Assembly (NCBI RefSeq): GCF_040741455.2
Contig: NZ_CP160328.2
Span: 1,364,001 to 1,428,000, forward strand
Length of the DNA: 64,000 nucleotides
Direction: 5' to 3'
Origin: Snodgrassella alvi
GTDB taxonomy: Bacteria; Pseudomonadota; Gammaproteobacteria; Burkholderiales; Neisseriaceae
Shown piece after piece: positions 29,002 to 40,574 of the stretch; the stretch's first letter is position 1; every line of letters starts with the position of its first letter. A program made the translations under genes and the position numbers. The notes beneath the pieces are model-generated. The model was not told where the DNA came from. It worked only from the letters and a program-made list of their open reading frames with translations, and ran no database searches.

Positions 29002-29366
29002 TTAATCATTTTTGTATCTTAATACGAATATTTTAGCAATTTCGGCTGGGAAATGCATTACTCTGCAATTTTGATTAGACTGTGAACTGAATCTTTATCA
29101 ATGAATTCAAGATAGGCTTACATGTTTTTAAGATAAGAAGATTTCAAAACAAGTTGCCAGTGATATCAAATAAATTGTTGTCAACTCAGGCTTAGTCTAT
29201 AAACAATTACAGAAGTAATATCACGTAGTATGTTTTTAATATTGCTGAAAAGAAATCATTTTTTTAGTCTAAATGCAATTTGAGACAACTTTGAATCACT
29301 ATTATGAATTCATAAACAATATATCCATCCGGATTCAGTGATAAACGCTAAAGTGAAATAATAAAT

Positions 29367-29414
29367 CCATAAGTAGATTCTGCTTTGAGATAGGAAACAT
29401 GAATCTACTTATGG
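29367..29414. repeat. Perfect 14-bp inverted repeat with 20-base loop
   Basis: CCATAAGTAGATTC and its exact reverse complement are separated by 20 bases. There is no T-run next to it on the plus strand, and only ATTTATTATTTC on the minus strand. It could be a regulatory RNA structure, a weak terminator or a remnant of a small repeat element. I found no second copy in the window by eye. Confidence 0.7.
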
Positions 29415-29517
29415 TTAAAGATATCTAGCAAATTGATTATGCCAGAAGAGGATATGAAGTTATAAATGGGTTACTTCAGACACGAACTTATTTAAAGTAT
29501 GGCTATAATAGGCTACC

Positions 29518-29544
29518 GCCCTGTTTGAGCTTTATAAACAGGGC
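29518..29544 (-). terminator. Hairpin after the Roadblock operon
   Basis: A perfect 9-bp stem GCCCTGTTT / AAACAGGGC with a 9-base loop, 18 bp past the last gene of the 29563-33768 operon. The downstream minus-strand sequence is not a T-run, so termination would be weak or Rho-assisted. Confidence 0.5.
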
Positions 29545-29562
29545 TGTATGCTGAATTTTCTG

Positions 29563-29928
29563 TTATCGTAAAATATCCACAATGCTGCGGGCAGCACGAC
29601 GAGCATCCAACAAAATCAAACCTAATTTGGCACCTTCATTAGCTGTCACAGCCAGTACATTGGTATCACCTGCTTGAATCAGCAGAATATAACCATGTTT
29701 ACCCTTTACCATAACTTGCTCCAGTTCATCACACTGTAATTCACGTGATGTGCGGTTACCCAGAGCAAGCAAAGCTGCCGCCATTGCACCAACGCGATCC
29801 GGATCAACACCATTTGGTAACAAGGTTGCTACCGGCAGACCATCGGAGGAAATTACAGCAGATGCGGTAATGTCAGCCGAGGAGCTGTTTAAATCGCTTA
29901 ATACCGAAACCAGTAATTGTTCTTGCAT
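29563..29928 (-). CDS. Roadblock/LC7 domain protein
   Basis: A 121-residue protein with the single-domain Roadblock/LC7 pattern: DLNSSSADITASAVISSDGLPVAT, an acidic turn, DPDRVGAMAAALLALGNRTSRE, then VMVKGKHGYILLIQAGDTNVLAVTAN. Bacterial proteins of this type (MglB is the best known) are partners or GTPase-activating proteins of small Ras-like GTPases. It is the last gene of a five-gene operon with such a GTPase, 21 bp after the preceding gene. No signal peptide or membrane segment is present. Confidence 0.88.
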   Translation of the reverse strand: MQEQLLVSVLSDLNSSSADITASAVISSDGLPVATLLPNGVDPDRVGAMAAALLALGNRTSRELQCDELEQVMVKGKHGYILLIQAGDTNVLAVTANEGAKLGLILLDARRAARSIVDILR

Positions 29929-29949
29929 CTTGATGTCTTTCTATTGATG

Positions 29950-30609
29950 TTATTCATTTACCACATGAATGTCTTCACCAGCCAATACATACAGGCCACG
30001 TACCATAGTGACGAAAGCCTCACTGTTGAGTAATGGCAATCCGGCAGTGACCAAAATATTTTTGGTATTCCCTATATATAAAGGGAAGAATGTTAATTCA
30101 CTCTGACCGGCAGGATCACATATCCCGATAGCGTTGTTGTATATATTGAGGTTATTTTTAATCAGCAGGCTGTGTTTTTCAGTCAGCCGTGTTGCCTCGC
30201 TGGCCAGATTGGCCACTTCTTCGGCAGTCTCATGATTAAAACCGACATTAGCAAAATAAAAACCATCCTGATCAACCAGCAATGCCTTATGGCTGTCTGA
30301 CAATTGACCCAGAATATCTTCGAATCCATCTGATGTTACCTTCACCAGCTGTGAGCTTGGTTTGGCTTCACCATATAAAAATTCCAGACGTTGCAAGCGA
30401 TATAATAAATTCAATGCAGTATGAACATCATCTGTCTCAGCCCATTGCTTTAAACGCTCTTCAGTTAATTTGGCGTTTATGTCTGCCTGCAGAATGTTAG
30501 CCAGTAACATACGGCTTGCACTGTGACTAGGGCTAGACACTGCATAAAATGCACCAGCCGGCATCACTTTTGGATATAAATCATGATGTAACTGTAATGT
30601 AGAATCCAT
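29950..30609 (-). CDS. Conserved protein of the GTPase operon, possibly Roadblock/longin-like
   Basis: A 219-residue soluble protein. I do not recognise the family with certainty. The N-terminal third is mostly helical (LANILQADINAKLTEERLKQ). The C-terminal half alternates strand and helix with HKALLVDQDGFYFANVGFNH and LFFPLYIGNTKNILVTAGLP-like strands, reminiscent of a Roadblock fold. It lies 5 bp after the GTPase gene and 21 bp before the clear Roadblock gene, so a role as GTPase partner is likely by context only. Confidence 0.7.
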   Translation of the reverse strand: MDSTLQLHHDLYPKVMPAGAFYAVSSPSHSASRMLLANILQADINAKLTEERLKQWAETDDVHTALNLLYRLQRLEFLYGEAKPSSQLVKVTSDGFEDILGQLSDSHKALLVDQDGFYFANVGFNHETAEEVANLASEATRLTEKHSLLIKNNLNIYNNAIGICDPAGQSELTFFPLYIGNTKNILVTAGLPLLNSEAFVTMVRGLYVLAGEDIHVVNE

Positions 30610-30614
30610 ACTGA

Positions 30615-31151
30615 CTATCCTTCCAATCCCGGATCAATGGAATACAGCATAGCAGTAACCAGTTGTTTCACGTCATCTTCATTGCGTGCATCAACTTCAA
30701 ACACAGGTACATTTAGATTGTGTTGTGCCAGATACTGCTGATAAACATCCACACCTGGCTGTGGATTTAAATCCATTTTGGTCACACCCACAACAACTGG
30801 TGCATCTTCCAGCAAATCGTGAAAAGAAGTCAGGAAGAATTTCAAATCTTTCAATGGATTCTGGCGAGTATTATCCAGTAACAGAATTAAACCCATACTG
30901 CCCTTACTCAGAATACTCCACATAAAATCGAAGCGTTCCTGACCTGGGGTACCATATAGATGAACTTTGGTATTATCGTCCAATCGAATAACACCATAGT
31001 CCATGGCGACAGTAGTATAGCCTTTTCTGTCCTGAGTCATGTCCGACGCACTGGCATCTGTCTGTACCGGAGGATCATCCGATAATGCAGCGATAGCAGT
31101 TGTTTTTCCCACCCCAACCGGGCCGGTAAAGATAATTTTATTTTCAACCAT
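30615..31151 (-). CDS. small Ras-like GTPase (MglA-type superfamily)
   Basis: A 178-residue soluble GTPase. The P-loop GPVGVGKT is at residues 10-17. A switch I Thr lies in KGYTTVAMD (46-47). G3 is YGTPGQERF (66-74) with the candidate catalytic Gln71, and G4 is TKMD (124-127). The GTPG form in place of DxxG is seen in several prokaryotic Ras-like groups. It lacks a lipidation site. In Myxococcus the related MglA sets cell polarity with MglB. Here it is flanked by Roadblock-type genes downstream and by a receiver-like protein upstream, 20 bp away, which supports a switch module. Confidence 0.9.
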   Translation of the reverse strand: MVENKIIFTGPVGVGKTTAIAALSDDPPVQTDASASDMTQDRKGYTTVAMDYGVIRLDDNTKVHLYGTPGQERFDFMWSILSKGSMGLILLLDNTRQNPLKDLKFFLTSFHDLLEDAPVVVGVTKMDLNPQPGVDVYQQYLAQHNLNVPVFEVDARNEDDVKQLVTAMLYSIDPGLEG

Positions 31152-31171
31152 GATTACTCCCTGCTTAGGTA

Positions 31172-32320
31172 TTAATTGCCACGCAAGCGACCCATCAAAC
31201 GTGCCAGTAAACCTTTCGGCTTGTCGTCATCGCTTTCATTATACTCTGACGTTGGTGCACCACCATCTGGTTTGGAAACCTTCTGTGGTGCTTTCCGGGT
31301 CAGAACCATTTCTTTTTCCTGTTGCGCAGCAGAATGAGTCAGCGGCTGCTCAATAATCAGGGAACCAATTGAATAAGTAGCAGCTATGTAGTTCAGGACA
31401 TCTTCCAGAGATACGGGCAACAACTTGTATAAAGTGTTGAGTGCTACGGGCGTACGTACCAGAAAAGCGGATAGACGCATAGCTTCAGGTAAAAACGCCA
31501 GACGAGTCATATTCGGCCAAGCTTTCAGCTTGATGATTGTATCTGGTGTAATCGGATCGATTAGGCGGCCGCGAGCTGTCCAAATTGATAGCTGCCATAT
31601 ACAGGACTGTAAGGTAAGTTTTGCTTTGTCATGCAACTGTGCGGTAGGTGCGGAAGCTGGGACAGTTTTAGTCTGCCATTCTGCATCAGTCTGCATACAC
31701 AATTGTTGTAAAGCATCATTATCAACAGCCAGTAATACTTTTTCAACACTTGGAAATACAATCAACACAGGTTTGTTTTCAAACAGAATTGCAGTATCTT
31801 CTGATTGCTGTGCCAGCTTTTGCACCATGCCCAGCAATGTTCCTTTTGTGTGAAAACGTACTACTGATACGGCTTGCTGAGTATGTTCAGACGCGTTTTG
31901 CTGCTCTAGTCTCTCGGCAGTTACGGTTTCCTCGCTGGCCGTTTCCTTGTGTGCAGCAGCTTTATCAGCCAGCCAAACACCATTGCCCTGCTGTAAATTA
32001 CGCAGATGTTGAAACAGGGTATCGAATCTGATGGGTTTCATCAGATAAGGAGCAGTAAATGACGGCGCATTACGTCCGAAAAATACGACTACAGCTTCAG
32101 GATATTTCTTTTTGGTCTGTTGCCATACTTCTTCACCATCGGCTGTGTCACCATCTACCAGAACCAACTCAGGTTTGAGGTTATCTTCAGGCTGTATCAG
32201 CTGATAGTTAACGCTATTGTACATTTTGAATGCCATGCGCAACATGGCTGTCTGGCGATCATCCACATTGACGAGCAAAACATAGGCAGTTTTTACTTTA
32301 GGTATTGAATTGTTCATCAT
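31172..32320 (-). CDS. Receiver-like protein of the GTPase operon
   Basis: A 382-residue protein. The N-terminal 110 residues look like a response-regulator receiver fold: VLLVNVDDRQTAMLRMAF with paired acidic residues, LVLVDGD at the phosphoacceptor position, a hydrophobic strand AVVVFFGRN, and YLMKPIRFDTLFQHL with the conserved Lys-Pro. An alanine/glutamate-rich linker follows. The C-terminal half includes LIDPITPDTIIKLKAWPNMTRL, then a helical stretch and an acidic, lysine-rich tail ending LLARLMGRLRGN. No HTH or enzymatic output domain is visible. It starts with ATGA overlapping the TPR gene's stop. Confidence 0.75.
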   Translation of the reverse strand: MMNNSIPKVKTAYVLLVNVDDRQTAMLRMAFKMYNSVNYQLIQPEDNLKPELVLVDGDTADGEEVWQQTKKKYPEAVVVFFGRNAPSFTAPYLMKPIRFDTLFQHLRNLQQGNGVWLADKAAAHKETASEETVTAERLEQQNASEHTQQAVSVVRFHTKGTLLGMVQKLAQQSEDTAILFENKPVLIVFPSVEKVLLAVDNDALQQLCMQTDAEWQTKTVPASAPTAQLHDKAKLTLQSCIWQLSIWTARGRLIDPITPDTIIKLKAWPNMTRLAFLPEAMRLSAFLVRTPVALNTLYKLLPVSLEDVLNYIAATYSIGSLIIEQPLTHSAAQQEKEMVLTRKAPQKVSKPDGGAPTSEYNESDDDKPKGLLARLMGRLRGN

Positions 32321-33768
32321 TGATTTTGCACACCACCGTGGTTAATACGTTTCAATAATTGACTCATAGCCAGTACAACTTCCTCAGGCGGGGTCTGAAT
32401 TTCAGCACGGATAACCTGTAACATTTTTTCCAGACGTGTCCATTCTTCTGCACGTTCGTATAAGTCAAATAAAGTAATGTAGAGCTGGGACTCCTGTGGA
32501 TAAAGCAGAACTGATTTTTCCAGTAAATCCATGGCTTCATCAAATTGACCGAATGTAAGCAATGATTCCACATCACGCAATACGCGTTCGGCCGGTGTTT
32601 CAGCCACATCATTATCTGAAGAAGCCTTATCAACCAGTGATAAACGCTTGGCCTTCAGTGCACTGCTATTCATGGGTAGATAACCCTGCGTTACCCCAAT
32701 ATCACGCAGTACGGTTTCACTAGGTCTGGTTTCTAACTGCTCAAACATCGGATGTTGTCCAAGGCTATAGCCCCATCCAAGCATACGCTCTTTTACGACA
32801 TTACCATATTGACCAAGCGTATAATATAAACGCCATAAATGCTGAGCGAATACATTAATATTATTGTGTCGGTAATCCAGCACCAGAGCATCAATAATCA
32901 AACCCGCCGGTTTTTTGGATGTTTTGATGGCTTTATTCAGACAGCGGATAGCAGCATCGTAGGGCAACTGCTCTTTCAACAGTCCGTAGCTGTTTTCCGG
33001 TTTAGAGAAGCTTAGCAGTACGTCACGCTCATCCCCTCTAATTTTAAAATTACCAACATTGCCTTCGACTAACAATTCATGCGGCTGTTCGTCGGTGTTT
33101 GACCCATTATTGGCTGATTCAACCGCTGGCTGTATATCTTCAGGTTTTTTATCCTGATTGATTCCGACTTCTTTTTCAGTTTCCTTGACATCCCACTGCA
33201 GCAAGTCTTCGGCCAGAACACGCAAACCCAGATGGTTTTCATCCAGGGCAAGCCCCTGACGAATCAGATTTTCTAGCTCAGTCCGATTTAAACACTTGCG
33301 ATACAGATCAATGACTTCGGCAAGTTTGTCGGTATTTTTGGCTTCCAGACACAGTCCAGCCAGCTCGTTGACCAATGTATTGGCCATTGCCGGGCTTAAC
33401 TGGTCGGCATTTTGTTCCAGATAGGCAGAGAGTGAGTCTGCTGCTTTCTGGAAATAGCCAAACTGTTTGTAAACTTTATATTCAGTCAGGTGATCCACAG
33501 TGGCAACAGATACTGTGGCTTTATCAGGCCTAGTTGGCTGCCAGTCCCAATCGTCGCCATCAAGTGCTTCTGCTGTTTCTTGTGCTGCGGGTGCCGTCTG
33601 AGCATCTACAGTTTTACTTCCAGTTTTTTTCTTACTTTTGGAAGCAGACTGCTTTTTACGAGCAGTATCTTTACTTTTAGCATGGTCGCCCGCTTTCTGA
33701 CGCTTTTTCAGAATAAGCAATGCAACCAGCAATATGACTAAAAGGGTAATTGGTAAATATAATTCCAT
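32317..33768 (-). CDS. Single-pass membrane protein with TPR-like repeats (FimV-like)
   Basis: A 483-residue protein. A single membrane helix at residues 4-20 (YLPITLLVILLVALLIL) is followed by a lysine-rich, alanine-rich linker and then helical repeats. Examples are YKQFGYFQKAADSLSAYLEQ near 100 and DEAMDLLEKSVLLYPQESQL near 415, typical of TPR. The arrangement, one helix plus cytoplasmic TPR, resembles FimV/TspA polar scaffolds, but no LysM domain is present. It is the first gene of the GTPase operon; GGGATG precedes the ATG. The next gene overlaps it by 4 bp. A role as membrane anchor for the switch is inferred. Confidence 0.75.
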   Translation of the reverse strand: MELYLPITLLVILLVALLILKKRQKAGDHAKSKDTARKKQSASKSKKKTGSKTVDAQTAPAAQETAEALDGDDWDWQPTRPDKATVSVATVDHLTEYKVYKQFGYFQKAADSLSAYLEQNADQLSPAMANTLVNELAGLCLEAKNTDKLAEVIDLYRKCLNRTELENLIRQGLALDENHLGLRVLAEDLLQWDVKETEKEVGINQDKKPEDIQPAVESANNGSNTDEQPHELLVEGNVGNFKIRGDERDVLLSFSKPENSYGLLKEQLPYDAAIRCLNKAIKTSKKPAGLIIDALVLDYRHNNINVFAQHLWRLYYTLGQYGNVVKERMLGWGYSLGQHPMFEQLETRPSETVLRDIGVTQGYLPMNSSALKAKRLSLVDKASSDNDVAETPAERVLRDVESLLTFGQFDEAMDLLEKSVLLYPQESQLYITLFDLYERAEEWTRLEKMLQVIRAEIQTPPEEVVLAMSQLLKRINHGGVQNQ

Positions 33769-39658: not shown

Positions 39659-40294
39659 TTATTTGATATCTGGATAAACCCACAGTTTATGTTCATGTAC
39701 TTCGGCTAGGAAAACTTCATCTAGTTTCTGTCCTAGACGGTCTAGTTCTTTTTCTAGCCATTCTTCATTATGACCCAAAGATTCAAGACTGGGATAATTG
39801 ATAACGCCGTTTTCAATCACAACAACTGCCATTGCTGGGTCACCTTTTTTTACTACGGTCATTTGGCCATTGTATTCAAACCAGACATCACTGAGCATTT
39901 CCAGACTGGTATAACCACGCTGATGAAGCAGCATAATGAAATCTCGGATGGATAGTTTGGCCTGACGGAAATTCTGTGATAGTAAGATGCCGTTTTTCAT
40001 CAGTCGGATTGATGTGCCGTCGACAAAATCCTTGGCGATACTGCGTTTAAATGTGGCATAACGAACCAGTAATAACAGGCCAGCCCAGAAAATGGAGGCG
40101 CTCATGAGTAAGGTGATGCTGATGGAGGGATTGTATAGGGGGCCGCCGATTATTGCACCCAATACGACGTTACCTACTTGATCAATAGCTGAAATCGGGG
40201 CAAGTGCACCTTTGCCGGATAAATTGATGTACACCAGCAGGATGCAGAAAGCGACCAGCATTTTGAAGATGATGTTGATGTAGATGGGATTCAA
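39659..40294 (-). CDS. DUF421 (YetF-like) membrane protein
   Basis: A 211-residue protein with two or three N-terminal membrane helices and a C-terminal soluble domain. The conserved helix segment VYINLSGKGALAPISAIDQV (normally MGKR in the family) is followed by FVDGTSIRLMKNGILLSQNF and the two-strand segment IRDFIMLLHQRGYTSLEML. The DUF421 family is widespread and mostly uncharacterised. It is a monocistronic gene with no informative neighbours. Confidence 0.88.
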   Translation of the reverse strand: MNPIYINIIFKMLVAFCILLVYINLSGKGALAPISAIDQVGNVVLGAIIGGPLYNPSISITLLMSASIFWAGLLLLVRYATFKRSIAKDFVDGTSIRLMKNGILLSQNFRQAKLSIRDFIMLLHQRGYTSLEMLSDVWFEYNGQMTVVKKGDPAMAVVVIENGVINYPSLESLGHNEEWLEKELDRLGQKLDEVFLAEVHEHKLWVYPDIK

Positions 40295-40574
40295 GGTGGC
40301 TTCCTTTGTCTGTGCGGTGGCTTTAGTCCAACATGATTTGCATTTTTGGTTTTTGCAATCATGGTTTTATCGATACCATGATGTGTTTACTGTAGCTGTT
40401 ATATTTGCGGCAGACTATGGTTAACACCTGTTTTTTATGGCTTATTTACATTAATTTCCTTAAATGTTCTTTTTTTGAATACAGAATTTTTCTGTGTTGG
40501 TTTAAACACAAGTATTTTTATGTCTTTTTTGTGCTGAGCTGTCTCTGTGATTTGAATATATTTTTATTTCTTCG

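Follow-up and report, generated by a model that had tools for sequence, protein, structure and literature searches.

What does an operon that joins a small Ras-like GTPase to Roadblock-type proteins, a receiver-like protein and a membrane protein with tetratricopeptide repeats (TPR) do in Snodgrassella alvi, a symbiont of the bee gut? Five such open reading frames (ORFs) lie on the minus strand, at 29563-33768, of a 64,000-nucleotide stretch of a complete 2.29 Mb S. alvi genome (NCBI RefSeq assembly GCF_040741455.2, contig NZ_CP160328.2, positions 1,364,001 to 1,428,000), which is referred to here as the window. From the 5' gene onward they encode the TPR protein, the receiver-like protein, the GTPase and two proteins named RobA and RobB, separated by a 4-bp overlap and then by gaps of 20, 5 and 21 bp; re-reading of the ORFs reproduced exactly the placement, strand and spacing given in an earlier note on this DNA. 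The operon is, virtually beyond doubt, a Group 3 MglA system, which is a known kind, and is the published Snodgrassella mgl operon. What is new is a five-gene core that includes the TPR partner, a split sensor operon at mglB-3, and a putative link to redox or oxygen. With somewhat better than an even chance, the best explanation is a GTPase switch that would couple redox or oxygen state to pilus-based surface behaviour.

Identity of the GTPase

The 178-residue GTPase combines a Ras-type G domain with a TxxGQ G3 motif, the pair of features by which the MglA family is recognised, and solved MglA structures are among its Protein Data Bank matches. Replacement of the aspartate of G3 by threonine is given as a mark of the MglA family (PMC3000849), and a DAR sequence in G5 marks the Group 2 and Group 3 MglA proteins (PMC4316618). 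The small Ras-like GTPase of the earlier note is thus upheld, and is of the MglA kind (Ras and ATP_bind_1 matches, TPGQ, DAR). Its G4 motif reads TKMD, with the lysine kept, as in most Neisseriaceae homologues; absence of the lysine of [NT]KxD is a frequent, not an obligatory, trait of Group 3 (PMC4316618).

Group 3 systems combine MglA with either one or two MglB proteins and with a conserved receiver-winged helix-turn-helix (wHTH) protein, and occur in beta- and gammaproteobacteria including Neisseria (PMC4316618; Wuichet & Sogaard-Andersen 2014). At the window locus, DAR in G5 is accompanied by two adjacent Roadblock genes and by a coupled conserved protein with an N-terminal receiver fold. 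In Snodgrassella communis, mglB-1 and mglB-2 are coupled and an orphan mglB-3 lies ~1 Mb away (PMC11112851, Meng et al. 2024); the genus and the locus (mglA, mglB-1, mglB-2) are the same, and the window genome has three Roadblock genes, as in published Snodgrassella. The GTPase sequence is identical to that of S. alvi wkB298 and 94-97% identical to those of other Snodgrassella. The earlier remark that no function was described for this gene set in Neisseriaceae is outdated, given the description of Group 3 MglA (PMC4316618) and of an mgl locus with transposon sequencing (Tn-seq) and motility data (PMC11112851).

Additional Group-3-like GTPase genes, 43-51% identical and with quite different neighbours, were seen in rumen Neisseriaceae and relatives (L038-L042, L048-L051). 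Genus g5 has three GTPases per genome.

Roadblock and receiver-like partners

RobB scores 63.5 bits against the Robl_LC7 model, for which the Pfam cut-off is 23, whereas RobA, with 18.8 bits, lies under it; among RobA homologues, 15/34 match the same model at E <= 0.01. Residues 89-213 of RobA, as modelled by AlphaFold2, align to 3kye with a VIA-align Z of 11.2 and to MglB of Myxococcus xanthus (6hjm) with a Z of 10.4, and Foldseek assigned the model to the Roadblock fold (E 4.9e-4). Since a profile-profile comparison of RobA with RobB was not significant, the RobA assignment is based on the fold matches and the sub-threshold Pfam matches. The Roadblock-type partners proposed earlier are therefore borne out, RobB clearly by Pfam and the 219-residue protein, then labelled unknown, by its predicted fold. 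Judging from sequence divergence, RobA probably corresponds to mglB-1 and RobB to mglB-2 of the published Snodgrassella locus, and the two would be candidates for a GTPase-activating protein and a co-regulator.

Pfam and NCBIfam searches with the 382-residue protein and its homologues returned no significant family. In its predicted structure residues 9-122 adopt a receiver fold, as the term receiver-like in the earlier note had anticipated, matching 2qxy with a VIA-align Z of 11.0 (rmsd 2.3 over 100 residues) and the receiver fold in Foldseek with an E of 8.8e-5. Across 41 aligned sequences D58 and K95-P96 are conserved in 41/41 and D56 in 40/41, which makes D56/D58 the probable phospho-acceptor region. 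A serine or threonine occupies switch position 82 in 35/41; the window copy has glycine. The C-terminal region is helical in the AlphaFold2 model, has the invariant residues W242, G251, W268, P269 and R273, and carries a net charge of at least 0 in 39/41 (median +4); the whole 382-residue protein was modelled and fold matches cover residues 9-122, short of a middle domain (about residues 145-235) and of the wHTH-like part, though a missing structural match outside the aligned ranges does not imply a new fold. Weak HTH matches occur in a few members of the family, with no DNA-binding family significant. It is the protein that the description of Group 3 MglA systems lists as conserved but functionally uncharacterised.

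A fifth conserved component

Conservation was read from 80 named loci fetched by their GTPase; they rank best among more than 580 relatives, so that the set is biased to the nearest of these and does not represent Group 3 as a whole. Both Roadblock genes are present in 79 of these loci, the receiver-like gene in 78 and the TPR gene in 76, nearly always directly upstream of the receiver-like gene; two of the four loci that lack the TPR gene are contig ends. The same gene order is found in Neisseriaceae, Chromobacteriaceae, Acidithiobacillus, Methylococcales and Thiotrichales, and the named loci also include Hydrogenophilus. Because the Neisseriaceae genera share the same five genes in an identical order despite differing outer flanks, these are real genes and their order is not due to chance. 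Loss of gene order in relatives had been named beforehand as a possible refuter of the earlier note, as had absence of a Roadblock or receiver fold from the flanking proteins; the predicted structures show both folds, and the order proved to be conserved across beta- and gammaproteobacteria. In both of these groups conservation extends to the TPR gene as a fifth component, so that the core comprises five genes, and its product is very probably a true component of the module.

In betaproteobacteria and Acidithiobacillus the TPR protein has about 450-560 residues and an N-terminal membrane segment, whereas the gammaproteobacterial homologues, of weak similarity (E 1e-4 to 1e-10), are shorter, soluble proteins of about 230-295 residues and have no such segment. 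The N-terminal Kyte-Doolittle maximum is accordingly 1.75-3.31 in 22/22 long homologues and at most 1.44 in 18 gammaproteobacterial ones. Membrane anchoring is thus a lineage trait and the TPR partner a general one. The earlier note had called this a FimV-like membrane protein: the membrane-anchored TPR part of that description is supported by hydrophobicity and Pfam, and the FimV part is rejected, as neither FimV_core (TIGR03505) nor FimV_Cterm (TIGR03504) matches in the operon. A separate FimV gene of the same genome (G000:C1:1085229-1087136) matches both models. The SgmX model NF052243 did not match the window TPR protein, and matched 2/22 homologues weakly (best E 3.6e-4).

Two Neisseriaceae genera, g6 (G017, G026, G032) and g9 (G020, G028), lack the GTPase and any Roadblock gene. 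At one locus (L028 7554-9073, G033) the TPR gene is present as two ORFs, through a frameshift or as a broken gene.

Sensor genes in relatives and a satellite operon

The window operon itself has no PAS or PhnD-like gene. A PAS gene (~160 residues) and a PhnD-like gene (PF12974, ~250 residues) share the GTPase locus in 31/80 named loci, usually directly after RobB: in most gammaproteobacteria the operon continues directly with this pair, and in Methylococcales and Thiothrix the operon runs on into Aer-type PAS and PhnD-like genes. The PhnD-like proteins begin without an evident signal peptide. In an order-level relative (G056) a single locus holds GTPase, RobA, RobB and PAS together with two PhnD-like genes, and at a single Hydrogenophilus locus (L078) PhnD-like genes and two RobB genes are interleaved. 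Globin oxygen-sensor genes occur in or beside the operon at four loci. Protoglobin genes lie downstream of RobB (L082 3737-4390), between RobA and RobB (L096 3537-4100) and between RobB and PAS (L125 7763-8320), a DosC-like globin-GGDEF gene directly follows RobB (L097 7595-8983), and a globin-Roadblock fusion protein has been published from Methylacidiphilum (PMC4476040). Apart from this fusion, a literature search found no paper that links the module to PAS, PhnD or aerotaxis. The occurrence of two unrelated oxygen or redox sensor types, Aer-type PAS and globin, at one position suggests oxygen or redox as the input, to which we give an even chance.

In the gammaproteobacterial locus L114 (7217-11061), a 903-residue PAS-SpoIIE phosphatase-HATPase protein and a STAS-PhnD fusion are encoded between RobA and RobB, an insertion that suggests a partner-switching input.

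A search of the window genome for PhnD-like genes gave a match at G000:C1:38447-39172, adjoining mglB-3 at 40201-40464. Between them is a PAS gene, and the 1-bp spacing of the PAS and PhnD-like genes suggests one operon. From this arrangement, the 'orphan' mglB-3 appears to head an mglB-PAS-PhnD operon of its own, ~1 Mb from the window operon. The trio is adjacent also in G006, G014, G015 and G022 and occurs in another order in G019, adjacency by chance being expected at ~0.007 per genome; in Neisseria elongata an MglB and a PhnD-like gene lie within 1 kb. The Snodgrassella satellite PAS matches the PAS of Escherichia coli Aer (8dik) with an E of 1.9e-41 over 121 residues. Among the PAS copies, an RHPD...W stretch, which we take to contain the FAD-binding residues of Aer, keeps its R, H and W in 43/43 and its D in 41/43, and the satellite PAS may accordingly be a FAD-binding protein. 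In a tree the satellite MglB proteins fall on one side, on long branches and with weak support. One larger module that was split in Neisseriaceae is the most economical reading, and it is quite likely that the satellite operon belongs to the same pathway as the window operon.

A second PAS-PhnD-like pair, without MglB, lies elsewhere in the same genome (G000:C1:395.8-397.0 kb; L155 3278-4515).

Relation to known systems

With Group 3 as published, the window operon shares the GTPase marks, two coupled MglB-type proteins, a receiver-like protein and the beta- and gammaproteobacterial spread; the published definition, however, includes neither a TPR gene nor a PAS/PhnD-like tail, and the window G4 keeps its lysine. 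The main text of Meng et al. (PMC11112851) has no mention of TPR, a PAS domain, phosphonate, PhnD or aerotaxis, and treats mglB-3 as an orphan. In M. xanthus, as here, the GTPase and MglB have further partners: MglC, another Roadblock protein; RomR, a response regulator; and SgmX, a TPR effector that controls pili. There, however, the GTPase is of Group 1 and the partner genes lie away from mglA. SgmX is moreover a cytoplasmic protein of 1,060 residues without a transmembrane domain, and no established homologue of the window TPR protein. The actinobacterial conservons (CvnA-D) likewise form an operon of MglB-like, MglA-like and signalling proteins with the unusual DAR in G5, but their GTPase is of Group 2, the histidine kinase CvnA stands in place of the receiver-like protein, and the four core components include no TPR, PAS or PhnD-like protein. 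FimV/TspA and the Pil-Chp system of Pseudomonas, which are polar pilus hubs, resemble the window operon in that a membrane-anchored TPR protein stands beside a receiver-type protein, and differ from it in the FimV domains discussed above. Aer is similar to the satellite PAS in its PAS domain and RHPD motif; the satellite protein differs in that it stands alone, with 167 residues and no chemoreceptor signalling domain, and shares its operon with an MglB-type protein.

Proposed mechanism and its alternatives

In the mechanism that we propose, the Roadblock proteins would determine whether the GTPase is in its GTP or its GDP state, and the GTP-bound form would act through the TPR protein, in an SgmX-like role, and through the receiver-like protein. 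These two would in turn set the place or the strength of type IV pilus action. Redox or oxygen state could enter via the Aer-type FAD-PAS protein, and a small ligand perhaps via the cytosolic PhnD-like protein.

An output on pili or surface movement appears rather likely. MglA acts on pili in Myxococcus, Thermus and Bdellovibrio (PMC7519303, PMC3983030), and in Snodgrassella a G78R mutant of mglB-3 shows altered spreading on 0.5% agar and a competitive gain or loss according to the bee host, all three mglB genes being beneficial for gut colonisation in a re-reading of Tn-seq data reported in the same paper (PMC11112851). The pilus link rests on MglA biology, with SgmX as a TPR effector, on the spreading phenotype of mglB-3 and on a pilZ gene found upstream at two loci (L076 and L114).

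Several observations weigh against a redox-gated pilus switch. Every GTPase-positive Neisseriaceae genome tested has pilM and pilT, but so do most genomes of the class. Class-wide, PilM is present in 58/62 GTPase-positive and 196/261 GTPase-negative genomes (Fisher p 0.0009), an association that is lost among genomes of at least 2 Mb (57/61 vs 178/200, p 0.46, by hand count); class-wide co-occurrence was therefore dropped as support. Genus g9 has pili (pilM) but neither the GTPase nor a Roadblock gene, and genus g6 has neither GTPase nor pilM, so that the GTPase-less genera of the family are uninformative on the pilus link. The type IV pili named as the possible output in the earlier note hence remain a putative one, co-occurrence being non-discriminating after size-matching. 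On the input side, FAD binding by the satellite PAS is putative, deduced from similarity, and Chromobacterium, Aquitalea, Vogesella and Neisseria bergeri have the five-gene core with neither a PhnD-like gene nor a third Roadblock gene by Pfam, which means that the sensor input is not universal. The literature search also turned up no biochemical work on a Group 3 GTPase.

Transcription could instead be the output, with the receiver-wHTH-like protein binding DNA under the gating of the GTPase and Roadblock proteins, as suggested for Group 3 by Wuichet and Sogaard-Andersen. A Phyre2 result of receiver plus winged helix (PMC4316618), the conserved D56, D58, K95 and P96, the invariant C-terminal residues with their mostly positive charge, and the weak HTH matches of a few members agree with such a regulator. 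A membrane-anchored TPR partner would nevertheless be an odd neighbour for it, no known DNA-binding family is significant, the window copy has glycine at switch position 82, and the published phenotype concerns surface spreading; we therefore consider a transcriptional regulator unlikely. About equally improbable is a polarity or envelope module with no action on pili, which would position surface adhesins, the secretion apparatus or cell-wall machinery and affect colony spreading and colonisation indirectly. Pili without the module in g9, the near-ubiquity of pili in the class, which leaves no exclusive link, and the dependence of Snodgrassella colonisation on adhesion and biofilm (PMC11112851) would be as expected of it. 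The presence of pilM and pilT in all GTPase-positive Neisseriaceae tested, the lack of both the GTPase and pilM in g6, the pilus function of MglA in three other genera and the two upstream pilZ genes speak for pili.

The satellite could also be a separate redox pathway that shares the Roadblock fold, with another input for the window operon. The betaproteobacteria that have the core without the satellite, the divergent, long-branched satellite MglB proteins and the Snodgrassella PAS-PhnD pair without MglB are consistent with this. It has, in our judgement, only a small chance, since 31 named loci, and G056 as well, have PAS and PhnD-like genes in the locus of the GTPase, and the interleaved RobB and PhnD-like genes of Hydrogenophilus are the arrangement expected before a split.

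A GTPase switch coupling redox or oxygen state to pilus-based behaviour may be extended, tentatively and with more doubt than confidence, to beta- and gammaproteobacteria at large: a Ras-like GTPase wired through multiple MglB paralogues to a redox or oxygen sensor, either Aer-type PAS or protoglobin, and to a PhnD-like sensor in the cytosol might let bacteria that move by pili follow gradients of oxygen or redox state with no classical chemotaxis array. The site at which Snodgrassella settles in the bee gut might be set in this way, which might also explain the host-switching mglB-3 alleles. Group 3 MglA is present in many genomes of Neisseria, Chromobacterium, Acidithiobacillus and methanotrophs. 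For these the conserved TPR gene is the first candidate effector, and the first candidate inputs come from the genes for Aer-type PAS, globin and PhnD-like proteins that lie within the operon or by a third MglB gene. The mglB-3 host-adaptation mutation becomes a testable redox-sensing hypothesis, and the system offers a possible route to energy taxis by twitching bacteria without a Che array.

Features and surroundings of the locus

Table 1. Coordinates of the operon genes, their motifs and domains (window positions) and of the satellite operon (genome positions)
Feature	Position	Strand	Evidence
TPR membrane protein, 483 aa, first operon gene	32317-33768	-	ORF; TPR_14 E 1.1e-5 at residues 401-433
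N-terminal hydrophobic segment of TPR protein, residues 2-20, probable membrane anchor	33709-33765	-	Kyte-Doolittle maximum 2.67
C-terminal TPR block, residues 401-468	32365-32568	-	Pfam TPR_14/TPR_19; part common to short gammaproteobacterial homologues by alignment
Receiver-like protein, 382 aa	31172-32320	-	ORF; AlphaFold2 pLDDT 85.6; 41-member alignment
Receiver fold, residues 9-122	31955-32296	-	VIA-align, Foldseek, conserved columns
MglA-type small GTPase, 178 aa	30615-31151	-	Pfam ATP_bind_1 E 5.7e-15, Ras E 7.1e-12
GTPase G1/P-loop GPVGVGKT, residues 10-17	31101-31124	-	Invariant in 11 genus-level homologues
GTPase G3 TPGQ, residues 68-71, Thr replacing usual Asp	30939-30950	-	Invariant in 11 homologues
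GTPase G5 DAR, residues 154-156	30684-30692	-	D154 and R156 invariant, A155 in 9/11 homologues
RobA, 219 aa, N-terminal helical domain and Roadblock domain	29950-30609	-	AlphaFold2 pLDDT 89.5
Roadblock/LC7 fold of RobA, residues 89-213	29971-30345	-	VIA-align, Foldseek on AlphaFold2 model
RobB, Roadblock/MglB-like, 121 aa	29563-29928	-	Robl_LC7 E 1.5e-17
mglB-3, then 167-aa PAS gene, then (1 base on) 248-aa PhnD-like gene	G000:C1:38438-40569 (L135 3939-6070)		

A promoter scan gave matches not above those in shuffled sequences, and a terminator scan found 6 against 4.4 in shuffles. An AT-rich stretch of 561 bp without a gene (29002-29562) separates the end of the operon from a ybeY-like gene. 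Judged by eye from their translations, the genes that flank the operon in the window are presumably ybeY/corC/lnt-like on one side and, on the opposite side, mltA and mutS-like; an mltA-like gene also flanks the operon in Stenoxybacter and Eikenella.

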